Of a DNA stretch of 64,000 nucleotides, positions 48,292-63,666 are shown in pieces. This DNA is from an uncultured Clostridia bacterium (lineage in GTDB: Bacteria > Bacillota > Clostridia > TANB77 > CAG-508), in the NCBI GenBank assembly GCA_947632605.1, contig CANRPX010000001.1, forward strand, positions 52,535 to 116,534, read 5' to 3'. A program made the position numbers and the translations under genes. A model generated the notes under the pieces. That model saw only the letters and a program-made list of their open reading frames with translations. It made no database searches and was not told where the DNA came from. Position 1 is the first letter of the stretch. Each line of letters opens with the position of its first letter.

Positions 48292-48365
<74 letters not shown>

Positions 48366-48477
48366 CAAAAGGCATTTTAGCCTTTATTTTTTTGTTTCAA
48401 TGTGTCACTGTAAACCGCTAAAAATGGGCATTTTATAAAAATAAAAGAGACAGATTAAAACACTTTAAAACGAAAAA

Positions 48478-48528
48478 TTGTCAACAAAATTGTCAACAAT
48501 AAAAAACGTGTTGACAATTTGTTGACAA
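48478..48528. repeat. Paired inverted arm-type repeats (TTGTCAACA x2, TGTTGACAA x2)
   Basis: TTGTCAACA at 48478 and 48490; TGTTGACAA at 48509 and 48520. Confidence 0.85.
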
Positions 48529-48723
48529 AATGCCCATGTAATCTTACAGTATTAAGAGATACAAAGGTCAGTATTTTTAATGCTTTACATAAATAAGTTT
48601 AAAAGTGGAAATTTAGTGGTGAATTTTTTAAAAAAGTTTTGACATTAATCTATTAAAGTATTGATATATAAATAAAAAATGACATAGGGAAAAGCAGTAT
48701 TCAAAAAGAATACTGCTTAAATA

Positions 48724-49935
48724 TTATCTTGCTAAATCATTATTGTCTAATAATTCATAATTGGTTGTATTTAATTCTCTTGCTTTATTGAATATATCAT
48801 TATTTAAATAATATTCATGTAGTTTTTCCATTTCTTTTTCTTTGTATTTATTTAAAACAGAAGTATAAGTGTTTAATGTTATATTTATGTCAGTATGACC
48901 AAGTAATCTTTGAAGTGCAACAGCTCTCATACCAGATTCAATACAACGAGTACCATAGGTGTGTCTTAAAGTGTGTGTAGAAACTGGATGTGTAATATTA
49001 ACTTTTTTAGCAATACCTTTTAGTTGATTGTTAATAGTAGAGTGTAAAACTAGTTTTTGATTTGGTGTTAAAAATAACATGTTGTCTTTATTGTTTTTAG
49101 AAATTTCTAATTGTTCCATTATATAAGGTAATATAAAATCAGGTATTGGTAAATCTCTTTGCCCAGCAAAAGTTTTTGTAGTTTTTCCTACACATACTTT
49201 ATCGTTTTTATCAGTTGTTAATGTTCTTCGTACTTTTAGTATTTTTTTATTTAAATCAAAATCACTAGATTGTAAAGCAAGAGTTTCGCCAACACGAAGT
49301 CCCATATATAGTTGAATTAGAAATACATTTCTGTAAGGTACATCTTGAACATCAACATTTAGTAAATAATCAGTTAGTCTTTGTTGTTCATCAACTTCTA
49401 AAGCATTGCAAATTTTATCTTCCTTTTTACTTCTAGGTTTTATCGTTTCATACATAGGGTTTTCATGTATATAACCTTTATTTAGAGCATATTCAAAAGC
49501 ACTTTTAAATTGAAAATAACTTTTTTGAATTGATGAATTACTGTAATTTTCAGTTAATGAATTAAAATAATTTTGTAATTCATCTGTTGTTATTTCATTT
49601 ATGTTTTTATTTGCTAAATATGTCTTTTCGATAGTCCTTATAGTGTTCATACTTCTTGCATAAGCTCTATCGGTTATTAAATTAGAATCAACTTTTTTCT
49701 GCAATAACATTTTTATAAGTTTAATTAAAGGTATTCCATTGTTTTGAATAAATATAGAACTATTTTTTTGCAAGTTTATATCTTTTAAAAATTCTTTTGC
49801 CGATTCTTCTGTTGAAAATGATTTTCTTATTCTTTTGGGTTTAGCAGTATTTAAATCTTGTATAATATAAGAAGCTATCCAGTTTTTTCTATCTTTATTA
49901 TAAAAAACACTGCCTTGAGCTTGTTTATTTGCCAT
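48724..49935 (-). CDS. int: Tyrosine recombinase/integrase
   Basis: C-terminal HPVSTHTLRHTYGTRCIESGMRAVALQRLLGHTDINITLNTYTSV (HxxR...H..Y); start at 49935 after AGGAGGTGTG RBS. Confidence 0.95.
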   Translation of the reverse strand: MANKQAQGSVFYNKDRKNWIASYIIQDLNTAKPKRIRKSFSTEESAKEFLKDINLQKNSSIFIQNNGIPLIKLIKMLLQKKVDSNLITDRAYARSMNTIRTIEKTYLANKNINEITTDELQNYFNSLTENYSNSSIQKSYFQFKSAFEYALNKGYIHENPMYETIKPRSKKEDKICNALEVDEQQRLTDYLLNVDVQDVPYRNVFLIQLYMGLRVGETLALQSSDFDLNKKILKVRRTLTTDKNDKVCVGKTTKTFAGQRDLPIPDFILPYIMEQLEISKNNKDNMLFLTPNQKLVLHSTINNQLKGIAKKVNITHPVSTHTLRHTYGTRCIESGMRAVALQRLLGHTDINITLNTYTSVLNKYKEKEMEKLHEYYLNNDIFNKARELNTTNYELLDNNDLAR

Positions 49936-49946
49936 AAACACACCTC

Positions 49947-50222
49947 CTAAACTCGTCTTTGCATTTTCCAAATAGTGTAGGCAAGAAGTGTTATGTGCCA
50001 AGATTGACCTAGATTTACAGACGGAAAATCATTTCTTTTAAAAATTTTATAACTTGCATTTTTACCAATGTTTAAATCTTTTGCAACATCTTTTACTGTT
50101 AATGTAGCAAATGGATTTTCTAATTTATCTATAGCAACTTTTGCAAGAACTTCTTCAAATGAGATTTTTTCTTTAGTATCAATTAATTCTATTTCTAAAT
50201 TATCTTGTTTTAATTCTTTCAT
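49947..50222 (-). CDS. Small HTH DNA-binding protein, excisionase-like
   Basis: LTVKDVAKDLNIGKNASYKIFKRNDFPSVNLGQSWHI resembles Xis/HTH_17; adjacent to int. Confidence 0.75.
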   Translation of the reverse strand: MKELKQDNLEIELIDTKEKISFEEVLAKVAIDKLENPFATLTVKDVAKDLNIGKNASYKIFKRNDFPSVNLGQSWHITLLAYTIWKMQRRV

Positions 50223-51189
50223 CTTTATCTTTCTCCTTTATAATATAATCTTTTACTAATTTTTTAAGTCTGTTAAGTGGAAAATCAAATAGAATACTTA
50301 CATATTCAAAAGTTTTATTCAAATAGTGTTTTAATAAGTTATTAGTGTTTTTTATTTTTGAATATTCTTGTTTTAAATTATTGTAGTTATATTCTAAATT
50401 TTCTATTTTTTCTAAAGTAGTATCATTTATGACTTTAATTCTAGTATATTGTTTAGCTAGGGTATTGAATTTTTTGATAACTCTACGATAATCAGTTTGT
50501 AATTCATTAAAATTATTAGTGTTAATTTCTTGTTCATATTTTATTGATTTAGTTTCAAATTGTTGTACTTCATGATTAGTTATTACTTTTAACTGCTTTA
50601 TCGGAATATGTTCATTTTCGTCGTTTTTACCACGTTCTAAATTAAAACCAGACCTAGTCATATATTTGTAAAAATTATCTTGTAAATTTTTATAACTATT
50701 TTTTCCTTTCCAAAATTCAGAACAAGAAAGTTTATCTATTGAATTTCCATTTTTATCTTTAGTATGAACAACAGGGAGAAATACTAAATGCATGTGTGGT
50801 GTTGTTTCATCCATGTGGACTTTTGCAGATAAAATAAATTGCTCTCCTAAATTTTTGTAGTTTGCAACAAAAGTATAGGCAGTTTTAAAAAATCTTATTG
50901 TTTCATCAAAACCTATTTCTTCAAAAAAATCTTTATCAGAAGTAATGATATATTCACAAGCAATATTACTTGTCTTTTTAATTTGACCTTTTAATCGATA
51001 ATCATTTCTTAATTGATTAAATCTTTTTGAATATGGGGTAGTACAGGACTTAATTGAAAAATTGTATATACCTTTACTTTTATCAATGTCTTTGTTTGAA
51101 TAATTAGTATTTCTCCTTTCATTGTGTCTATAAGCTAAATTTAGAGTATTTAACTTATGCTTTGTGTTTCTAATTATTGCAAAACTCAT
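50200..51189 (-). CDS. MobV-family relaxase (Pre/Mob)
   Basis: MSFAIIRNTKHKL..., AKVHMDETTPHMHLVFLPVV catalytic His-triad motif, C-terminal coiled coil. Confidence 0.93.
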   Translation of the reverse strand: MSFAIIRNTKHKLNTLNLAYRHNERRNTNYSNKDIDKSKGIYNFSIKSCTTPYSKRFNQLRNDYRLKGQIKKTSNIACEYIITSDKDFFEEIGFDETIRFFKTAYTFVANYKNLGEQFILSAKVHMDETTPHMHLVFLPVVHTKDKNGNSIDKLSCSEFWKGKNSYKNLQDNFYKYMTRSGFNLERGKNDENEHIPIKQLKVITNHEVQQFETKSIKYEQEINTNNFNELQTDYRRVIKKFNTLAKQYTRIKVINDTTLEKIENLEYNYNNLKQEYSKIKNTNNLLKHYLNKTFEYVSILFDFPLNRLKKLVKDYIIKEKDKDERIKTR

Positions 51190-51313
51190 TTTGTCTCCTT
51201 TCTTAAAAATATAGAGACTTCGAAGTCATACTTTTGTATTGAGCACTCATGCTTACTAAATAACAGCACTAAAAAGAAAACAACATAAAAATTATTTTTT
51301 CTTCAGTGCTATA

Positions 51314-51395
51314 ACATACTAGAGGACTTTTAGGGAAAGTCCTCTGTATGATTAGGGGATACCCCTAATAACCCCCTAGAGTGTTTTAATTTGGA
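51314..51395. promoter_or_regulatory. Candidate oriT region (hairpin cluster upstream of relaxase)
   Basis: CATACtAGAGGACTTT-TAGGG-AAAGTCCTCTGTATG and ATTAGGGG-ATA-CCCCTAAT, followed by CCCCCTAGAGTGTTTTAATTTGG. Confidence 0.5.
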
Positions 51396-51524
51396 AAAGT
51401 TCTCTATAGCGAACTTTAATTTTTCTTTAGTATTGCTTATAAGCAATTTATATGAAGTAAGAGATTCTAGAAATCTCTTTTGGTTTACAAGTTAATGATA
51501 CCAGAAACAATTGATATACAGCGT

Positions 51525-51575
51525 ATTTATAAGAAAATTTTATAATTTATAAGAATTTATAAGAAAATATAAGAA
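51525..51575. repeat. Iteron-like tandem repeats ATTTATAAGAA
   Basis: ATTTATAAGAA at 51525, 51545, 51555 and variant AAATATAAGAA at 51565; 10-bp phasing. Confidence 0.7.
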
Positions 51576-51706
51576 AAATAAACAGATTTTCGCATTAAAA
51601 AACAGCAGTAAATATACTATTTCATCAATTTTTAAAAGTGTGTTTACGTAAGCATTACAAAATTCAATTTAATAATACTATTTTTATGTTAACTAGTTTA
51701 AAAATT

Positions 51707-51731
51707 AAAAACTGCACACAGTGCAGTTTTT
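51707..51731. terminator. Bidirectional terminator-like palindrome
   Basis: AAAAACTGCAC ACA GTGCAGTTTTT. Confidence 0.75.
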
Positions 51732-51843
51732 AATCGAAAGTATTGAGAAATATGGAAAATTAATTTTGAAATCTTTACATATAATAATTCGTTATTTTAG
51801 TATTTATTTCTGTTGCAAAAATCGACAAATAATAACAAAAATA

Positions 51844-51871
51844 TTGATTTATTATTATTTTATTATATAAT
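51844..51871 (+). promoter_or_regulatory. Promoter of cargo operon
   Basis: TTGATT (51844) - 16 nt - TATAAT (51866-51871). Confidence 0.55.
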
Positions 51872-51906
51872 GATTTTGACATAAAAGTAGCAATGAAAGG
51901 ATTAAT

Positions 51907-54624
51907 ATGAAAGATATTTATGAAAAAAATATTAAAGAATTAGAAAATATTTTATTGCAAGATAAGTTAATAGGTAATAGACTTTTACTGTATTATGATG
52001 ATAATGAATTTTTTAATTATGTTAATGAAAAAGCAGAAGATCTATTATTAAATTCAATAAATACACCTTTGAATGAAAAAAAGAATTATTATATAGTTAT
52101 TATATCATTGTCTTTTATATCACTAAAACTTTATGATGGTAGTCTATGGGAGCATGTTAGAAGTATCTATAAAAATCTTTATAGTAAGTATAGTGAGCAA
52201 AAGATTTATAGAAAAATACTAGATATTTTAAATTTATTTAGCAATGAAGATAAAAAAAGGTATATTAATTTTCCAATATCTAATGCAATAGTACCTGAAA
52301 AGTATTTAGATAAATATTTTGAATTTATGTTTGATATTTACAAAATAAATTTTCAAAAAAGTTTGCCTGATAATATTAATGAGGAATTAAAATTTGTTTT
52401 TGAAGGATTGACAGATAGTATTTCCGGAGAAAAAGATGATTTAGAGATTGCTGTAACCAATAAAACATATAAACTAATAAGAACAACACTTAATATTATA
52501 AAAAATAAAAAGAATATAGATTCACTAATTGAATTATCTTCAAATATTTTAAAATATATTGATTCATATTATTGGAATGATCCTACAGTTGATTATATAT
52601 CTACATCTTTTTATGAAGAAGCTTTAAAAAAATGGAAAGAGCAAAATAGTGAAGAAATTGATAAAATTAGAAATATAAATGACTTTGGTAATAAAGAAAA
52701 TAGATCTGCATGGAAGTTAAAATTTAAACTAATAGAGAATGAAATTTATTTATTTACACCTGTACATAGAATACCCAAAGACTATGATCCAACTGATATT
52801 AATATTTTTGTATATAACGGAGAAGAGCCATTGGCATTAGAAGAAAGACCTATTGTCGAAGAATCAATTGGTTATTATATTGTAAAACCTCAAAATGTAA
52901 AAATAGATAAACCAATTGGAAAACTAACATATGTTTTATCTGCTGGGAAAAATGAGATATATAATAGTAAAGATATTTTATATAGAAACTATATAGCATT
53001 TGACAATAAAGGAAATGAATTAAAAAATAACACAGAATATGAAGGAGATCTAATTATTGCAAGTGATGTGATTAATAATTCTGAAATTTATATTATAAAG
53101 AGAACTGAAGGATATATTTTAGGAGAACTAATTGCTAACATAGGTGATTGTGTTAAGATAAATAATAATTATTTGAACTTAAGTAAAAGAATAAAAAATC
53201 CTTTTATAGAAGGTAATCAATTAGAAAAAGTAATTGCTTTAAATGAAAATAAAAAAATAAAAGTGTTTAGAAATGTCGAAAATATACTATTTGATACAAA
53301 TGAACAATTAAGTAATATAATGATTGTTATTGATGGAAAAAGATATAGAATTGAAGATCTTAAGAATTATATAGAAAATAAAAATACTTATAATTTAGTT
53401 TCAGTAAATATAAGTGATCTAGAAGAAGGATATCATTTTATAAAAATAAAGAATATTAGTGATGAAAAAAATATAGCTCTATTTGAATTTATCGTAGATA
53501 AAAAATTTGATTTTGAATGTGAAAAGGTAGAAGATAAAAAATTTGTAATATTATTAGATTCTTCTTTTAGATTATATGATAATAAAAAAAATGAAATTTC
53601 AGAAGTGGTTATAGATATAAAGGAAGAGATAGAATCAAAAGTATTTTTTTATATAAATGAAAAAAAGTTTTTTTATATAATACCTTTATCAATTCCTCTT
53701 TATAAAATAGATGATACAAATTGGTGTGAAATTAACGAATTTATTTGGGGAAAAGATATAAAGTTTTATTCTAGACTTATGTTGAGAAATATAGATTTTG
53801 ACAAAATAATATTAGAAGACTTACAAAATAATGAATTAAAATGTTTAAATATAAGTGGAGAAGTTATTAATATAGATTTTTTAAGAAAATATATAGAAGA
53901 TTTTGATAGATTAAAATTAAAATTTTTAAAACAAGAAATAGAATTGGTAAGCATTGATATATTAAATGCGTGCGAATATGATAAAAATAATAGTTTTATC
54001 CAATATGATGAAGATAATAATATTTTGAAAATAAAGACTGTTTATATAGGAAAAGACAAAATGACATTGAAAATAATTAATACTCATACAAGTGAAATTG
54101 AATTTACTAAAGAATTAAAAGATAATATTACAGAAAATTTAATTGAAGGATTACATGCTTGTTGGGAATATAATATTATTTTTGAAAATATATCTTCTGA
54201 TTTATTTTCATTACCTAAACAAATATATAATGAGATAGTAACATTATATAATACTAATAATTTACAAAGAAAGTATTATAGTATTAACAAAGTTTATTAC
54301 GGCTATCCTATAGATAATTTAAAAGATTTTGAACTAAAAAATACATTTATATGGTTAAATAGTAAAATTGGTGATAAGAGATATGAAGCCGAGATATATC
54401 AAATGGGAAAGAATCATATTAGATTATATAAAACAAATATAAATCCTGTAATAATGGAAGTCATATCTAATCCAAAGGATAATACAATTGAAGCAATGAT
54501 TGTTGATAAGAACGATGATGGATTATTGCTAGATAAAGAAAAAAGAACTGTATATGATGGAAATAAAAATACTTTGAATGATATTTACATATATGAATTA
54601 TTATTAAATAGAAAGAAGAATTAA
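51907..54624 (+). CDS. 905-aa protein of unknown function; possible Druantia DruH-like partner of the helicase
   Basis: Helical N-terminus then beta-rich repeats; 2-nt gap to the downstream helicase gene; no motif recognised. Confidence 0.7.
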   Translation: MKDIYEKNIKELENILLQDKLIGNRLLLYYDDNEFFNYVNEKAEDLLLNSINTPLNEKKNYYIVIISLSFISLKLYDGSLWEHVRSIYKNLYSKYSEQKIYRKILDILNLFSNEDKKRYINFPISNAIVPEKYLDKYFEFMFDIYKINFQKSLPDNINEELKFVFEGLTDSISGEKDDLEIAVTNKTYKLIRTTLNIIKNKKNIDSLIELSSNILKYIDSYYWNDPTVDYISTSFYEEALKKWKEQNSEEIDKIRNINDFGNKENRSAWKLKFKLIENEIYLFTPVHRIPKDYDPTDINIFVYNGEEPLALEERPIVEESIGYYIVKPQNVKIDKPIGKLTYVLSAGKNEIYNSKDILYRNYIAFDNKGNELKNNTEYEGDLIIASDVINNSEIYIIKRTEGYILGELIANIGDCVKINNNYLNLSKRIKNPFIEGNQLEKVIALNENKKIKVFRNVENILFDTNEQLSNIMIVIDGKRYRIEDLKNYIENKNTYNLVSVNISDLEEGYHFIKIKNISDEKNIALFEFIVDKKFDFECEKVEDKKFVILLDSSFRLYDNKKNEISEVVIDIKEEIESKVFFYINEKKFFYIIPLSIPLYKIDDTNWCEINEFIWGKDIKFYSRLMLRNIDFDKIILEDLQNNELKCLNISGEVINIDFLRKYIEDFDRLKLKFLKQEIELVSIDILNACEYDKNNSFIQYDEDNNILKIKTVYIGKDKMTLKIINTHTSEIEFTKELKDNITENLIEGLHACWEYNIIFENISSDLFSLPKQIYNEIVTLYNTNNLQRKYYSINKVYYGYPIDNLKDFELKNTFIWLNSKIGDKRYEAEIYQMGKNHIRLYKTNINPVIMEVISNPKDNTIEAMIVDKNDDGLLLDKEKRTVYDGNKNTLNDIYIYELLLNRKKN

Positions 54625-54626
54625 TA

Positions 54627-57600
54627 ATGAAAAAAATGAATCCAATAGAACAATCAAGTTATATAGAAAATAAATTTAGAGAATATATTCAATCAACATT
54701 TCAAATTGAAGATGAAATATATGAAAGAGAATTTAAAGAGGAACTGAAAAAAGCAGAAATATGCAAAGGTCCATTTATAAGTACAACATTACCTTTTAAA
54801 AGAGGACACTCAATTAGAGAATTAATCGAGCAAGGCTTAATTAATAAAAATTTTTTGAAGTTATCTGATATTGATTTTGATAGAAAACTTTATTTACACC
54901 AAGAAAAAACTTTAGAGTTAATAGAAAAAGGGCATAATGCAGTAATAACAACAGGAACCGGTTCTGGAAAAACAGAAAGTTTTTTATATCCAATTTTGAA
55001 TCATATTTTGAAAGAAATTGATAATGGAAAAGGTGGAAGTGGCATCGTATCTTTATTTTTATATCCCATGAATGCACTAGTTAATGATCAAATCGATAGA
55101 GTGAGGAACATATTAAAAGAATATCCAGAGATTACTTTTGGCTTTTTTACAGGAGAAACAGAGGAAAAGGATGTCCCAAACTTAAGAGAGAGATTATCTG
55201 AAAAATATGGTATAAAAGTTCCTCAAAATGAAATCGTATCAAGGGAAGAAATAAGAAAAAACACTCCTAATTTGTTATTTACTAATTATTCTATGTTAGA
55301 ACACTTATTAATAAGACCTACTGATTTTAATATATTCAATGAGTCAAATATTAAAAGATGGCAATTTGTAGTTTTAGATGAAGCTCATACATATACAGGT
55401 GCATTAGGAATTGAATTGGCACTTCTATTAAGAAGAGTAAAAGGAATTGCCAAAAGGAATCCACAGTTTTTGTTAACAAGTGCTACTTTAGGTGATGAGA
55501 ATAAAGATATTGATAAAATAATAAATTTTGCTGAAAGTCTTACGACAAGCAAATTCGAAAAAGAGGATATTGTCTTCTCAAAAAGAGAAAAATTTTTTGC
55601 AGATTGTAGTTATAGAATTAATCCAGAAGAGTATTCTAAAATTGTTGATTCTATCAAAAAAAATGATTTAAAAACAGTTGTTAAAAATATAAATTGCAAT
55701 ATAGATATTAATCAACAAGATGATGAAATATTATTTGACTTATTAATAAATGATAAAAATGTACTTGAATTGTTTAATATTTTAAATTCAGGAAGTATAA
55801 AAACTTTTAAAGATGTATATTTTAAATTTTGTAATATAATAAATATTACAGAACAACAATTAGTAGATTTTATTTTTATTATTTCAAAAGCTAACAAAAA
55901 AGGAGCAACATTATTTGATTCAAAATATCATACTTTTATTAGAACTTTGGATGGAGCTTTTATTTCAATTGGTCAAAATAAAAAGATGAAATTGACAAAT
56001 TGTAAAACTATAGACGATATGGTTGCATTTGAAATAGGTCTTTGTAAATATTGTAATGAAATTTATATTATTGGTAAAAAATATCAGGATAAAAATGGTT
56101 TATGGCATTTACACCAAAATTCAGATGTTGATATTGATGAAAATTATGGAGATATAGAGGAAAATACTAAAGTTGATTATTTTTTATTAAAAAATAATGC
56201 CAAAGTTAATGATAAATATATAACAGAAGTCGAAGAAGAAGTAGTATGTAGTAAATGTGGAGTTATTTATAATAGTGCAGACTTAAATGCGAGAAGTTGT
56301 AAATGTGGAGAACAATATAAAGTAGAATTATTGAGAGTAAAAAATGATAAAGAAGTAAAAAATAATCTAACCACATGTCCTTGTTGTACTAGAAGTTCAA
56401 GAAACAGTATAGGTATTGTTTCAGGATTTCATTTAAGTAAAGATAGTGCTACAGCATTGTTATCTCAAATTTTATATGAAACTTTGGATTATAAAGAAAA
56501 TAAAAATAGTAATTTTAAAATTGTAACTGATTTTTGGAATTCCAATAATGATCAAACAAAAATAAAAAAAGATGATAAAAAAGTTAAGCAATTTATAGCT
56601 TTTTCGGATAGCAGACAACAAGCAAGTTTTTTTGCAACTTTTTACAATTATACTCATAAACGTTTTCTTAGAAAAAGAATTATGTGGGAAGAATTAAAAA
56701 ATAATGAACATGAGTCAATTTCATTTACTAATTTATTAAATAGAGTGAAAAATAATATATATGATAATAAATTATTTGGTGTGAAAGATGATATAGAAGA
56801 TGCTGAAAAAGAAGCTTGGATTACTTTGATGTCTGAATTACTTAATATAGATGGTAATTATACTGCTGAAGGACTAGGAATTTTTTATTTTAAATTAAAT
56901 CAAGAAGATATAAAAAGAAGGATAAAAGAATATGGATTAAGTGAAGCTTTAAATCAATTTTTAAATAAATATGATTTAAAAGAAAATGAATTTTTTAATA
57001 TGCTTCAAATAATTTGTCAAATTTTTAGAAATACAGCATCACTAAACTATAATGAATCTAATCTTGATATGAGCATTCGAAAAGAAGAATTTGGCTTTAG
57101 AAGATTTGATAATTTTGTCGTTGAAAAAAGAGCGGATTTAAAGGATGATAGTGATGAAAATCAGAAAAAAGGTGAAAACAGAACAAGCTTTCTTCCTGTT
57201 AAAGAAAATATAGTGACTAGAAATTCCAATTATGTTGAAAAAGTTTTAAAATGCTCTAAAGAAAAAAGAAATGAGTTTTTAAGTGATACATTTAAATTAT
57301 GTAAGACAGTATTATTTAAAGAAATTGAAGGAAATTATGAAAAATTATATCAAATAGAAGCAAAAAGATTTGAGATTGATAGTTATATAAAAAATAAATT
57401 TTATTTTTGCCCAAAATGTAAAAAAATTACACCATATAATGTAAGAAATGTATGTCCAACTAAAAAATGTGATGGAAAATTAGAAAAATGTAATTTAGAA
57501 GAACTTTTTAAAAATAATTATTATAGAAAAGAATACATGAATAAAACTATTGAGAATATTGTTGTTAAAGAGCACACTGCACAAATTGATAGAGATAAAG

Positions 57601-59702
57601 GAAGGCAATATCAAAATGAGTTTAAAGATCAAAAAATAAATGTATTAAGTTGTTCTACCACTTTTGAAATGGGTATTGATATAGGAAAATTAGAAAATGT
57701 TTTTTTAAGAAATGTACCACCTACACCTGCAAATTATGTGCAAAGAGCTGGTCGTGCTGGCAGAAGCAAAGATTCTTCAGCGTTTGTTCTAACATTTTGT
57801 GGAGCTTCATCACATGATTTTACATATTTTAATGATCCTTCAAAAATGATTTCTGGAATTATAACTCCACCTAATTTTAAAGTTACAAATGAAAAAATTA
57901 TTATTAGACATATTACGGCATCTGCTTTTGGATTTTTCTTTAGATTATATCCTGAATATTTTGAAAATGTAGAAGCTTTAATTTGTAATAATGGAATAAA
58001 AAAATTTCAGGAATATTTGGAAAGTAAGCCGGATGAACTTAAAGATTATATCGACAATAATGTTTTAGATAATAATTCTAGAATGATATATGGAAATTTT
58101 AAATGGTTAAATAATTTGATTGATGAAAATGGTATTTTAAATAATTATTACAACTATAGAAAACAAAGATTAGATGAACTAGAAGATGCAATGAAAAAAG
58201 CAAGTAATAATTCTAATTTTTATAATGCAAAATATTATCAAGATGAAATAAATAAAGAAAAAAATGAAAATGTTATAGAAAGCTTATCTGAATTTTGTGT
58301 TATTCCTAAATATGGTTTTCCAGTAGATGTCGTTGATTTGAAAGTCTATGAGAAAAACGGTAGGCTAAATTCAAATTATAATTTATCAAGAGATTTATCT
58401 ATAGCTATTTCTGAATATGCACCGGATTCTGAAATAATTGTTGATGATAAAAAATATACTTCAAGATATATATTAAAACCTAGAAATGTTTCTGACTTAA
58501 CAAAATATTGGTATTTTATTTGTAGCAATTGTGAAAGATTAAATAAAGACATAATTAAAGAGCATTTATCCAAATGTAAGTATTGTGGTGATGAATTTAA
58601 CACCGCTAATATTCTTAATTATTATGTCGATCCAATATATGGTTTTGCTACAGATATTAAAAATAAAGAATCAACTACCAAAAAACCTAAAAAGACATAT
58701 TCTGGTGAATTTAAATATATTGGAGAAGGTATTAGTAACAATGATAGATTTTCATTTAATGATTTTGTTTTTATTGAATCATCAAAAGATGATAAGTTAT
58801 TAATTATGAATACGAATCCATTTTACAGATGTAAATTATGTGGATATACAAAACTAATAAAAAATAAAACTGGTATGTATGAAAAAGAAAAACATAAGAA
58901 TCATATGCAATATGATTGCGAAAATGATATTTTAGAAAAGACATCATTAGGTCATGAATTTAAAACTGATGTTGTGAAAATAATAATAATGAATTTAACA
59001 GAAAAAAAACATGCATTATCAGCATTATATGCTATTTTAGAAGGCATTAGTAATGCATTTGATATAGAAAGAAGAGATATAAATGGTATTACATATAAAA
59101 ATGAAGATGGCATTTATGAAATAATTATATTTGATAACGTTCCAGGAGGAGCAGGACATGTTAAAAGAATTTTGGAAAGAGAAAATTTAAAACTTGCTTT
59201 TTATAGTGCTTATAATAAAGTAAATAGTAATTGTTGTGATGAAGAAACTTCATGTTATAATTGTTTAAGAAATTATAGTAATCAAAGAATTCATAATGAA
59301 TTAAAACGTCGATATGCAAAAGAAGTACTAAAGGATGTAATTAATAGTTTTAATATTGAAGATATGAATAAAAAACAAGTAGAATTAAATATTTTAGTTA
59401 ATGATTCATATTTTTTAGATGAGTATAATGTATGGGAAGAAATACAGTATTTTATAGAAGGTATAAAGATTGATGAATTTATAAGTAGAGAAATTAGAAT
59501 ACCAGATTATGCAACTAGTGTAATAAAAACGGAAAATGATACTATTTCTGCATTAGCAATATGGCAAAATGAAAAAATAGTTTTATTTGATAATGGTATT
59601 TCAGATGATAAATTAAATCAATACAATTCTTATGGTTGGACATGCTATAGGATTAATGATATAAATTATGATAATATAAAAAAGATAATGATCGGAGCAT
59701 AA
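54627..59702 (+). CDS. Giant DEAD/DEAH-box helicase with DUF1998-like C-terminus (DruE/DrmA/MrfA-like)
   Basis: AVITTGTGSGKTESFLYP, VVLDEAHTYTG, LLTSATLGD, STTFEMGIDIGKLENVFLRNVPPTPANYVQRAGRAGR, several Cys4 pairs, FDNVPGGAGHVKRI...CCDEETSCYNCLRNY. Confidence 0.92.
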   Translation: MKKMNPIEQSSYIENKFREYIQSTFQIEDEIYEREFKEELKKAEICKGPFISTTLPFKRGHSIRELIEQGLINKNFLKLSDIDFDRKLYLHQEKTLELIEKGHNAVITTGTGSGKTESFLYPILNHILKEIDNGKGGSGIVSLFLYPMNALVNDQIDRVRNILKEYPEITFGFFTGETEEKDVPNLRERLSEKYGIKVPQNEIVSREEIRKNTPNLLFTNYSMLEHLLIRPTDFNIFNESNIKRWQFVVLDEAHTYTGALGIELALLLRRVKGIAKRNPQFLLTSATLGDENKDIDKIINFAESLTTSKFEKEDIVFSKREKFFADCSYRINPEEYSKIVDSIKKNDLKTVVKNINCNIDINQQDDEILFDLLINDKNVLELFNILNSGSIKTFKDVYFKFCNIINITEQQLVDFIFIISKANKKGATLFDSKYHTFIRTLDGAFISIGQNKKMKLTNCKTIDDMVAFEIGLCKYCNEIYIIGKKYQDKNGLWHLHQNSDVDIDENYGDIEENTKVDYFLLKNNAKVNDKYITEVEEEVVCSKCGVIYNSADLNARSCKCGEQYKVELLRVKNDKEVKNNLTTCPCCTRSSRNSIGIVSGFHLSKDSATALLSQILYETLDYKENKNSNFKIVTDFWNSNNDQTKIKKDDKKVKQFIAFSDSRQQASFFATFYNYTHKRFLRKRIMWEELKNNEHESISFTNLLNRVKNNIYDNKLFGVKDDIEDAEKEAWITLMSELLNIDGNYTAEGLGIFYFKLNQEDIKRRIKEYGLSEALNQFLNKYDLKENEFFNMLQIICQIFRNTASLNYNESNLDMSIRKEEFGFRRFDNFVVEKRADLKDDSDENQKKGENRTSFLPVKENIVTRNSNYVEKVLKCSKEKRNEFLSDTFKLCKTVLFKEIEGNYEKLYQIEAKRFEIDSYIKNKFYFCPKCKKITPYNVRNVCPTKKCDGKLEKCNLEELFKNNYYRKEYMNKTIENIVVKEHTAQIDRDKGRQYQNEFKDQKINVLSCSTTFEMGIDIGKLENVFLRNVPPTPANYVQRAGRAGRSKDSSAFVLTFCGASSHDFTYFNDPSKMISGIITPPNFKVTNEKIIIRHITASAFGFFFRLYPEYFENVEALICNNGIKKFQEYLESKPDELKDYIDNNVLDNNSRMIYGNFKWLNNLIDENGILNNYYNYRKQRLDELEDAMKKASNNSNFYNAKYYQDEINKEKNENVIESLSEFCVIPKYGFPVDVVDLKVYEKNGRLNSNYNLSRDLSIAISEYAPDSEIIVDDKKYTSRYILKPRNVSDLTKYWYFICSNCERLNKDIIKEHLSKCKYCGDEFNTANILNYYVDPIYGFATDIKNKESTTKKPKKTYSGEFKYIGEGISNNDRFSFNDFVFIESSKDDKLLIMNTNPFYRCKLCGYTKLIKNKTGMYEKEKHKNHMQYDCENDILEKTSLGHEFKTDVVKIIIMNLTEKKHALSALYAILEGISNAFDIERRDINGITYKNEDGIYEIIIFDNVPGGAGHVKRILERENLKLAFYSAYNKVNSNCCDEETSCYNCLRNYSNQRIHNELKRRYAKEVLKDVINSFNIEDMNKKQVELNILVNDSYFLDEYNVWEEIQYFIEGIKIDEFISREIRIPDYATSVIKTENDTISALAIWQNEKIVLFDNGISDDKLNQYNSYGWTCYRINDINYDNIKKIMIGA

Positions 59703-61394
59703 ATGGCTAGAATAATTCCAGAAAAAGTTTATTATTTTAATAAAAGCTATGGAGAAAAATTAGTATATGAATCTCTTAAAAGTTTATCTGATGATTATAC
59801 AATTTTTTATTCTGTACTATGGCAACAAAAAGAAAGAAGAAATGAAAATATAGTATGGGGAGAATCTGATTTTACAGTTTTTCATCCTAAAAAAGGTATA
59901 TTAGTTATTGAAGTAAAATCTGGTGGAATTTCATATAAAGATGGAAAGTGGTGGCAAACTAGATTAGATAATAATGAAATAAAAAGCATGAAAGATCCAT
60001 TAATTCAAGCTAATAAAAGTAAATATAGATTTATTAGTGTAATAAATGAAGTGCTTGAGATAAATCAGTTTTGTAATATTGAATCTGTTGTGTGGTTTCC
60101 ATCAATTGTAGATAATATTAAAAACATTAAATTGCCTTTATCATATAACAAAGACATAATTTTTACTCAAGAGGATTTAAAAAATCCGGAAAATGCGATA
60201 AATAAAGCATATCAATATTATAATGCAGAAAAGAAAACAAGGCTAGATAGTAAAGCAGTGCAAAAAATAATATCTGTATTAGCACCAGAATTTGATTTAA
60301 TTAAGAAGATTGATACAGAAAAGCAAGAAAAAAACTATGCATTTTTGAGATTAACTAGAGAACAGAGTACATTATTAGATTATTTAATTGAACAAAAGAA
60401 AGTTTGTATTCAAGGGTCGGCTGGAACAGGAAAAACTTTGATAGCAATTGAAGAAGCTAAAAGACTGGCACTAGATGGAAGAAAAGTATTATTTTTATGT
60501 TTTAATCATTTTTTATATAAATATTTAAAAAGTAATTTTGAAAATAATAATATAGATTTTTATAATTTACATACACTACTGTTTAAATACTCAGGTAGAT
60601 ATGATATAAAAAATGAAGAAATTGTAACTTTGTTAAAAAAATATGAAAATAAATTTGATTATAATGATGTAATTATAGATGAAGCCCAAGATTTTAATGA
60701 TGATGTTATAGAATTTTATTCAAGAAAAACGGAAAAATGTAATGGAAAATTTTTTATATTTTATGATAGAAAACAATTATTATTTCAAAAGGAAAAATCA
60801 AACTGGATTGAAAACGCAGAATGTAAATTAGTATTATCTAAAAATTGCAGAAATACCCAACAAATAGCAATCACGTCCAATAGTATTATTGATGCAAATA
60901 CATATTTAAATGATAATGCTATTCAAGGAGAAATGCCTACATTAAATTTTGTTAATAACAGAGAAGAAGCAATTAATAAAATTAAAGAGTTAATAGATAA
61001 ATATAAATCAGAAGGTTTTGAAAATAAAGACATAATAATTTTGACACTTGAAACAGAAGATAGATCTATTTTAAATGCTTATACTTATATAAATAATAAT
61101 AAAATTGTATCTGAAATAGATGGAGAAAATATATTATTTACTACATCAAAAAAATTTAAAGGATTAGAATCAGATGCTGTTATTATTATAGATATTAAAC
61201 GAGATGATTTTATAGATGAAGAAAAACGCCGAAACTTATATGTAGCATCTTCTAGAGCTAGACAAAAATTAGGATTGGTTTTTGAAAGTAATGATGAGGA
61301 TATAGATTTTTTAGCAAAAGAAATCAAAGAAATTAATAATTCAAATGGTATAGCGAAAATTGCAATGAAGTTAAAAGTTAAACCTATAAAATAA
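59703..61394 (+). CDS. NERD-domain nuclease fused to SF1 (UvrD/DUF2075-like) helicase
   Basis: GESDFTVFHPKKGILVIEVKSGG (NERD), CIQGSAGTGKTLIAIEEAKRL (Walker A), VIIDEAQDF, SKKFKGLESDAVIIID, LYVASSRARQKL. Confidence 0.92.
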   Translation: MARIIPEKVYYFNKSYGEKLVYESLKSLSDDYTIFYSVLWQQKERRNENIVWGESDFTVFHPKKGILVIEVKSGGISYKDGKWWQTRLDNNEIKSMKDPLIQANKSKYRFISVINEVLEINQFCNIESVVWFPSIVDNIKNIKLPLSYNKDIIFTQEDLKNPENAINKAYQYYNAEKKTRLDSKAVQKIISVLAPEFDLIKKIDTEKQEKNYAFLRLTREQSTLLDYLIEQKKVCIQGSAGTGKTLIAIEEAKRLALDGRKVLFLCFNHFLYKYLKSNFENNNIDFYNLHTLLFKYSGRYDIKNEEIVTLLKKYENKFDYNDVIIDEAQDFNDDVIEFYSRKTEKCNGKFFIFYDRKQLLFQKEKSNWIENAECKLVLSKNCRNTQQIAITSNSIIDANTYLNDNAIQGEMPTLNFVNNREEAINKIKELIDKYKSEGFENKDIIILTLETEDRSILNAYTYINNNKIVSEIDGENILFTTSKKFKGLESDAVIIIDIKRDDFIDEEKRRNLYVASSRARQKLGLVFESNDEDIDFLAKEIKEINNSNGIAKIAMKLKVKPIK

Positions 61395-61431
61395 TTTTTA
61401 TAAATTACAATTTTTGAAAGGTTGAAAATAT

Positions 61432-62199
61432 ATGGATTTAGCATTAAATTATAGTTTAATAGAAAATTATAAAAATAATTCTCAAAAAGCTAGAATTTTA
61501 ACAGAAGATTGGGTAAAAAGAAATGCTTTTTGTCCGATCTGCGGTAAAGCAAATATAAATAAATTTGAAAATAATAAACCAGTATCAGATTTTTATTGTG
61601 AAAGATGTAAAGAAATTTTTGAATTAAAAAGTAAAAATGGAAACTTTAGTAATATTATTAACGATGGTGCTTATTCAACTATGATTGAAAGAATTACAAG
61701 TAACACGAATCCAGATTTCTTTTTTCTTACTTATAATATAAAAAAATATATTGTAGAGAATTTTCTAATAATACCTAAATATTTTTTTACCCCAAACATT
61801 ATATTAAAAAGAAAACCATTAGCTCCAACAGCTAAAAGAGCAGGTTGGATTGGGTGCAATATTAATTTAAGTTCAATTCCAAATGATGGAAAAATATTTA
61901 TTATAAAACAATGTAGAGAAATTCCAAAAAAAGATGTTATAAGCAAAATGCAAAAGAATATCTTTTTGAAAAATTCAGAAGTAAGTTTAAGAGGATGGAT
62001 TTTAGACATAATGAGATGTATTGATGAAATTAAAAAAGAAGAATTTACTTTATTAGATATATATAAATTTGAAGAATATTTACATATATTACATCCAAAC
62101 AACAATAATATTCAAGCTAAAATAAGGCAACAACTACAAATTTTAAGAGATAATAATTATATTGAATTTTTAGGAAAGGGAAAATATAGAAAGGTTTAA
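61432..62199 (+). CDS. DpnI-like methyl-directed restriction endonuclease (Gm6ATC-specific, predicted)
   Basis: NSQKARILTEDWVKRNAFCPICG, NNKPVSDFYCERCKEIFELKSKNGNFSNIINDGAYSTM, NPDFFFLTYN, RKPLAPTAKRAGWIGCNI, KIRQQLQILRDNNYIEFLGKGKYRKV; recalled as closely similar to pneumococcal DpnI along its length. Confidence 0.95.
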   Translation: MDLALNYSLIENYKNNSQKARILTEDWVKRNAFCPICGKANINKFENNKPVSDFYCERCKEIFELKSKNGNFSNIINDGAYSTMIERITSNTNPDFFFLTYNIKKYIVENFLIIPKYFFTPNIILKRKPLAPTAKRAGWIGCNINLSSIPNDGKIFIIKQCREIPKKDVISKMQKNIFLKNSEVSLRGWILDIMRCIDEIKKEEFTLLDIYKFEEYLHILHPNNNNIQAKIRQQLQILRDNNYIEFLGKGKYRKV

Positions 62200-62204
62200 A
62201 AATC

Positions 62205-62444
62205 ATGAATAAATATATTTTTTTGACAGACGAGGGGTATACATATTTGCCTAATTCAGTAAGTACAGAACCTGATTGTGAGAATTCACAAGTATTAGGA
62301 ATAGTTGAAGCTGATTCAGAAGATAATGCTTATAAAAAATTATTAAAAGAAAATGTTTATTTATTAAATAAGCAATTTAGTCAAATTTATTGCTACAAAA
62401 TTGAAAAAAATTTTGAAAAGAAGTATTTTTATATAGAAGACTGA
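62205..62444 (+). CDS. 79-aa hypothetical protein co-transcribed with dpnI-like gene
   Basis: 6-nt gap from the upstream gene; YIFLTDEGYTYLPNSVSTEPDCENSQVLGIVEADSEDNAYKKLL. Confidence 0.7.
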   Translation: MNKYIFLTDEGYTYLPNSVSTEPDCENSQVLGIVEADSEDNAYKKLLKENVYLLNKQFSQIYCYKIEKNFEKKYFYIED

Positions 62445-62508
62445 ATGTATGAAAATTTAAAATTATACAAATTGATAAATAAGCATATAATATTATAATG
62501 TTAAATTA

Positions 62509-62537
62509 TTGACATTTTTGAAATTTTACTTTATAAT
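62509..62537 (+). promoter_or_regulatory. Consensus promoter of type III TA locus
   Basis: TTGACA (62509-62514) - 17 nt - TATAAT (62532-62537). Confidence 0.88.
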
Positions 62538-62551
62538 TAATTTAACAATGA

Positions 62552-62658
62552 AAATATGTGTCGCTCTTGGGTGGTGCGACTAATAAATTATCCCAATCGA
62601 TAAATATGTGTCGCTATTGGGTGGTGCGACTAAACAAAATATCCCAAATGAAAATATG
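62552..62658 (+). ncRNA. cptI: Type III antitoxin RNA (CptI-like), two 50-nt repeats plus 7-nt partial
   Basis: Repeats start at 62552, 62602, 62652 (period 50); each has GTCGC/GCGAC stem and TTGGG/CCCAA pseudoknot pairing. Confidence 0.88.
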
Positions 62659-62694
62659 GCCTTCCTTTGAAATACAAGGAGGGCTTTGCATTTT
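62659..62694 (+). terminator. Terminator between antitoxin RNA and toxin ORF
   Basis: GCCTTCCTT TGAAATAC AAGGAGGGC TTTGCATTTT. Confidence 0.82.
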
Positions 62695-62708
62695 AATAGG
62701 AGAAATAT

Positions 62709-63188
62709 ATGGAAATAAAAGAAGGATATGTATATCATATAAAAGATGAATATTTTGAAGTAGTAAAAGATGAAACATTAATGAAAAATCATGAAAATGG
62801 TAAAGCGAGACCAACATATTTTTGTATAAAAGATAAAACATCAGATATTCTTTGGTTTATTCCTATGAGTAGTAAAGTGGAAAAATATAAAAAATTAAGA
62901 GATAAAAAGATTACTAAATATGGAAATTGTGATTCTATTTTAATTAAAGAATTTTTAGGACAAGAGTCTGTATTTCTTTTACAAAATATGTTTCCAACTA
63001 TCGAAAAATATGTTGATCATGTACATATAGTTAATGGAGTAGAAGCTAAAGTTATTAGTAGGATTGAAAAAGAATTAGAAATAAGTTTTAATAAACTAAT
63101 GATTTTGATAAAACAAGGAAAAAAAGTTGTGTTTACGGATATAGATAAAGATTTAAAGATAATGAAAGATGAATTAGAAAGAAAATAA
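62709..63188 (+). CDS. cptN: Type III toxin-antitoxin system endoribonuclease toxin, CptN/ToxN/AbiQ superfamily
   Basis: GYVYHIKDEYFEVVKDETLMKN...RPTYFCIKDKTSDILWFIPMSSKVEKYKKL; preceded by the RNA repeat array and a terminator. Confidence 0.88.
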   Translation: MEIKEGYVYHIKDEYFEVVKDETLMKNHENGKARPTYFCIKDKTSDILWFIPMSSKVEKYKKLRDKKITKYGNCDSILIKEFLGQESVFLLQNMFPTIEKYVDHVHIVNGVEAKVISRIEKELEISFNKLMILIKQGKKVVFTDIDKDLKIMKDELERK

Positions 63189-63215
63189 ATATATTTTATT
63201 GATAAAGGAGAGATT

Positions 63216-63569
63216 ATGGAATTTGAGAATTTAAAAAATTTTTTTCAAAAAGAATATGGAAAAGAAATTACTGACCAAGAATTTTTAGAAAAATTAAAAA
63301 TAATAATAGATGACATTGATTTGCTAGTAGATATGGCAGAAGTAATAAGAAAACAAATTAAAAGTATTTTAATGAGAGTTGAATATTCGATAGAAAATCA
63401 TAAAAATTGTAGAATAACTATAGAAGAAAGAAAAATAGTAATAAGCGCACTTAAAAAATTAAGTAAGATAGTAGTTGATAACAAAGATGCAAAAAGATTT
63501 ATAGAAGTTTTGGCTGAATATTTTTTAGAATGTTTGAATTTGATTCAAAAAAATAATAAAAATTTATAA
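63216..63569 (+). CDS. 117-aa helical hypothetical protein at the right end of the IME
   Basis: ORF with AAGGAGAG RBS; no motif. Confidence 0.65.
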   Translation: MEFENLKNFFQKEYGKEITDQEFLEKLKIIIDDIDLLVDMAEVIRKQIKSILMRVEYSIENHKNCRITIEERKIVISALKKLSKIVVDNKDAKRFIEVLAEYFLECLNLIQKNNKNL

Positions 63570-63572
63570 ATT

Positions 63573-63593
63573 TTGTCAACATCTTTGTCAACA
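63573..63593. repeat. Arm-type repeats TTGTCAACA x2 near attR
   Basis: TTGTCAACA at 63573 and 63585; the same 12-bp spacing as the pair at 48478/48490. Confidence 0.85.
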
Positions 63594-63627
63594 AATAAAA
63601 AAATGCAACAATAAAACTATATAAATA

Positions 63628-63666
63628 GCGGGTAATGAGAAAACTTGCTTCTGGTTACCCGCTCCA
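63628..63666 (+). repeat. attR region with acceptor-stem-like inverted repeat
   Basis: GCGGGTA-21 nt-TACCCGC-TCCA; contains direct repeat TACCCGCTCCA. Confidence 0.82.

Follow-up and report, generated by a model that had tools for sequence, protein, structure and literature searches.

A CptIN-family type III toxin-antitoxin locus in a tRNA-Gly-integrated mobilizable element of an uncultured Clostridia bacterium

Introduction

The question raised by this locus is whether a short array of 50-nt repeats and the gene that follows it constitute an intact type III (RNA-protein) toxin-antitoxin system, to which family the pair belongs, and what it may do for the DNA that carries it. The locus lies in a stretch of 64,000 nucleotides from an uncultured Clostridia bacterium, the whole of which is called the window here. 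The original prediction was of a CptIN-type system with the architecture of ToxIN/CptIN abortive-infection loci. We found that the locus is an ordinary, intact-looking CptIN type III toxin-antitoxin system, one more member of an already known type, an assignment based on a curated family model, homology to a CptN of solved structure, the layout of about 80 homologues and covariation in the RNA. With a probability of roughly 0.93, we regard it as a functional-looking CptIN module that serves as addiction or defence cargo and lies towards the right end of a mobilizable element integrated at a tRNA-Gly gene.

Organization of the locus

All parts of the locus are read from the plus strand. It begins with a sigma-70-like promoter, TTGACA-N17-TATAAT (62509..62537), which matches the consensus at 12/12 positions. 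As a class, promoter-like matches were no more frequent than expected for such AT-rich DNA (8 observed vs 10.6 expected), so that the weight rests on the perfect match and on its conservation in homologues; upstream of homologous arrays, scores of 12/12 and 11/12 were found in 33 and 43, respectively, of 87 regions, which include three copies of the window locus. The array itself (62550-62658) has a period of 50 nt, comprises 2.2 copies and outscored every other tandem repeat in the window (167; runner-up, 104). Repeat 1 (62552..62601), whose exact 5' and 3' ends we infer, and repeat 2 (62602..62651) are 97% identical over the compared segments, 62552-62583 and 62602-62633, and the third copy amounts to about 7 nt (AAATATG, 62652-62658), with the terminator hairpin coming next.

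The hairpin (62658..62685), with a 10-pair stem and a weak U tract, is predicted to act as a leaky intrinsic terminator between the antitoxin and the toxin. One Rho-independent terminator was observed vs 0.2 expected, and the hairpin alone folds at -14.8 kcal/mol (z -2.56). A ribosome-binding-site-like motif, AGGAGA, precedes the 159-aa toxin gene, cptN (62709..63188). The promoter, the spacing of the repeats at 62552, 62602 and, for the partial copy, 62652, the passage of that copy into the terminator, the hairpin and the toxin gene with its ribosome-binding site had all been named in the original prediction, and each was recovered. Immediately 3' of cptN lies a 117-aa ORF (63216..63569, plus strand) without a convincing family; a role as a third component was ruled out, as it had no homologue beside cptN in the fetched loci.

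Family of the toxin

The toxin scored 163.2 bits against the NCBIfam CptIN model NF047359 (cut-off 90), and its sole strong match among solved structures was Eubacterium rectale CptN (PDB 4RMO, E=6.9e-23), in agreement with the predicted CptIN type and with homology to the ToxN/CptN fold. Against Pfam ToxN (PF13958), it scored 21.9 bits (E=2e-4), without reaching the cut-off of 25. Judged from these matches, the protein is a predicted CptN-family RNase of the Kid/ToxN fold. In the alignment to 4RMO (numbering of PMC4627078), the catalytic Ser51-Ser52-Arg53 of E. rectale CptN corresponds to Ser54-Ser55-Lys56 of the window toxin, Tyr104, the adenine-recognition residue, is aligned to His106, and Asp81 is not retained. 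Residues W49, P52, S54, Q92-N93, F95-P96 and Y101 were invariant across 85 homologues. Searches of plasmids and phages returned no match, and a search of viral contigs returned one relative, 44% identical, from a viral collection (L082); a weak Mob_Pre-like match lies close by, and this contig may be a mobile element instead of a phage.

Pseudoknots in the repeat RNA

In each of the two repeats we found the segments GTCGC/GCGAC and TTGGG/CCCAA, which would pair in the RNA as stems S1 (GUCGC/GCGAC) and S2 (UUGGG/CCCAA) of an H-type pseudoknot with an A-rich loop L2, UAAUAAAUUAU in repeat 1 and UAAACAAAAUAU in repeat 2. Two pseudoknots scoring jointly as well as these were reached in 0/200 shuffles of the region, and a single one as good in 3/200. 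In a sequence-based alignment of 31 distinct homologous repeat units, the S1 and S2 partners could pair in 93.2% of cells, vs 75.2% in shuffled alignments and 30-47% in slid controls with the partners moved by 1-3 columns, which keep the relatedness of the sequences, whereas shuffles do not. The covariation score of the pseudoknot was 0.526 (0.178 in shuffles), 58 cells were compensatory (14.8 in shuffles), and changes on both sides were seen in 8 of the 10 pairs, spread over both stems. Separate loci, moreover, carry different stem pairs, such as UUGGG/CCCAA, CCGGG/CCCGG, UCUGGA/UCCAGG and CCUAU/AUAGG. Since the slid controls keep relatedness and the stem pairs differ between separate loci, there is little doubt, on this comparative evidence, that CptI repeats are built to form the predicted H-type pseudoknot, with covariation support across the family.

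Single-strand folding without pseudoknots was no better than for shuffles (z -1.19 and -0.07), a result that is uninformative because pseudoknots are beyond the reach of this method. No type III antitoxin match was found in Rfam at either gathering or permissive thresholds.

Two units per array

Nearly all homologous arrays consist of two units, with a period of 44-52 nt; in one locus (L011), the automated period scan was misled by a TTGATAT-like repeat 5' of the array that outscored the array. The 2.1-unit array of the window is thus the norm of the CptIN family and no peculiarity. In at least 69 of the 87 homologous loci, three processing-like boundaries stand at unit spacing and enclose two units, the last boundary being GAAAAT. 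In the window, the third-repeat remnant, GAAAATATG (62650..62658, plus strand), matches 62550-62558, and this match, together with the boundary spacing in homologues, suggests that it is the 3' processing site of repeat 2. The simplest reading of the "partial third repeat" is therefore that it would provide the second cut for the last unit, giving two units per transcript. The middle boundary, UCGAUAAAU, differs from the GAAAAU of the outer two, so that the exact position of the cut is uncertain. An arrangement of three boundaries and two units fits the 2:2 toxin:RNA complex formed by E. rectale CptIN (PMC4627078), and it may explain the usual array length of about 2.1 repeats, since three cut sites would yield the two units of a 2:2 ring.

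The element that carries the locus

The locus is enclosed, near the right end, in a 15.3-kb element (48355..63666; no strand assigned). Within the window, the core sequence TACCCGCTCCA was located at just two places, the 3' end of the third tRNA-Gly gene (48355) and 63656, while TTGTCAAC occurs as only two pairs with 12 bp spacing, one at each end of the element (48478/48490 and 63573/63585). Its genes include those of a tyrosine integrase (PF00589), a helix-turn-helix protein, a Mob_Pre relaxase (PF01076), a DruE-like helicase, a NERD-helicase and DpnI (61432-62199). By its predicted integrase and relaxase and its direct-repeat attachment sites at a tRNA, the element is predicted to be of the integrative and mobilizable type. 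CptIN scored above the cut-off in only 10 of 53 genomes of the genus, indicating that the module is accessory.

An operon-like block (51907-61394) in the same element encodes a 905-aa protein that matched no family, a DruE-like helicase of 1691 aa bearing an MrfA zinc-binding domain, and a NERD-helicase similar to those associated with reverse transcriptases; it is possibly an undescribed defence system. The helicase (54627-59702) matched the PADLOC DruE model at 571 bits, and no other Druantia proteins were recognised among the neighbouring genes scanned around it.

Related integrases were found at tRNA-Gly in other species, each with its own attachment-like ends, and elements with the same layout of integrase, relaxase and tRNA attachment ends were present in G015, G020, G029, G034 and G065. 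Within the sample of six elements compared, which were picked by integrase similarity, cargo differed: CptIN was found in G000 and G029, ToxIN in G034, and restriction-modification genes in G015, G020 and G065. The cptIN of G029 is 39% identical and has two 48-nt repeats. In G034, a ToxN (131 bits, cut-off 25) with three 36-nt repeats 5' of it (L151 6036-6688) adjoins attR, occupying the place of the window cptIN. G020 carries a DpnII restriction system and a relaxase 99% identical to that of the window element, and in both G015 and G065 a cytosine methylase lies beside a 174-aa protein, which in G015 has a weak likeness to Bsp6I endonuclease, under the Pfam cut-off.

DpnI in the window and the DpnII system (L129 5935-8839, in an element at L129 1211-10741) are cargo of two related mobilizable elements, each in a different species, that have relaxases of 99% identity and share a tRNA-Gly integration site, a difference in cargo that recalls how DpnI and DpnII cassettes are exchanged in pneumococcus. 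No clean empty attachment site was found; those relatives studied in most detail have elements there. In L083 (6340-6440), about 96 bp with 80% identity to the sequence just 3' of the tRNA-Gly recur 2.1 kb past attR, which suggests that elements inserted here in tandem or one after the other.

Possible mechanism and role

One promoter would drive synthesis of the repeat RNA, with most transcripts ending at the hairpin and a few continuing into cptN. CptN would cut the repeat RNA at A-rich boundaries resembling GA|AAAU, and with the third-repeat remnant providing the cut at the 3' end of repeat 2, each transcript would give exactly two pseudoknots of about 50 nt. Two pseudoknots and two toxins would then assemble into a closed, inactive 2:2 ring. 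Should the element be lost or transcription be blocked, the short-lived RNA would be depleted and the RNase freed, which would amount to addiction. Such a role is suggested by the related elements of sister species, which carry other cptIN, ToxIN or restriction-modification genes at the same tRNA. As type III modules and restriction-modification systems alike are known to act as addiction modules, we favour a role in element retention, and phage defence may be a by-product. There is perhaps an even chance that the genus harbours small, tRNA-Gly-integrating mobilizable elements with interchangeable addiction cargo between the relaxase gene and attR, and that chromosomal retention is the natural job of CptIN.

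A different selected role, anti-phage abortive infection, in which phage takeover would halt the antitoxin supply and CptN would degrade transcripts, can be proposed only tentatively. It would accord with the defence-like neighbours of the locus (the DpnI nuclease, the DruE-like helicase and the NERD-helicase) and with the mode of action of ToxIN relatives (PMC5086642). However, the only CptIN tested against phages, that of E. rectale in a foreign host, stabilised a plasmid yet protected against none of more than 200 coliphages (PMC4627078), no PADLOC model matched the toxin, and for a cptIN that rides a mobile element stabilisation alone would be enough. The original prediction of a CptIN-type system stands, whereas abortive infection is not established as a property of CptIN.

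That the locus is degraded or inactive, through loss of key toxin residues or too short an array, is very unlikely. The changes from Tyr104 to His and from Arg53 to Lys, the loss of Asp81 and the array of just 2.1 repeats might point that way, but the same residues occur in close homologues, ToxN of Pectobacterium also uses Lys in its active site (PMC5086642), arrays normally hold two repeats, the ORF is intact, and the covariation indicates selection on the RNA. We also rejected, as extremely improbable, a true ToxIN-family system: the toxin does have a weak Pfam ToxN match, but this falls below the cut-off, whereas the CptIN cut-off is far exceeded and the repeat is 50 nt long rather than about 35. 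Taken alone, the locus contributes little: a further well-formed CptIN and a large collection of covarying CptI repeats, which gives the family pseudoknot statistical support. The element provides a natural setting for testing whether CptIN serves element retention or phage defence, and the element family is a more interesting lead than cptIN itself.

Relation to known type III systems

One close likeness is to CptIN loci from uncultured gut Clostridia (L002-L006), which have 49-50-nt repeats, the same stems and the same promoter. Aligned with these gut CptN proteins, a comparison proposed in the original prediction, the window toxin proved 75-79% identical; the DruE-like, NERD-helicase, DpnI, 79-aa and 117-aa ORFs of the window, in contrast, were not found in the fetched flanks. 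E. rectale CptIN shares the order of two tandem repeats, terminator and toxin, a toxin homologous over nearly its full length, and an H-type pseudoknot with a short L1 and a long A-rich L2; the L2 of the window resembles, in sequence alone, that of the A-minor twist of E. rectale CptI (PMC4627078). The window system differs in repeat length (50 nt vs 45), in L2 (11-12 nt vs 9), in L1 (two nucleotides vs one), in having Ser-Ser-Lys rather than Ser-Ser-Arg, and in the His that replaces Tyr104. ToxIN and AbiQ are loci of the same kind and share the toxin superfamily; unlike them, the window toxin lies under the ToxN cut-off, and ToxIN has shorter repeats, of 34-36 nt, and forms a 3:3 hexamer complex (PMC5086642).
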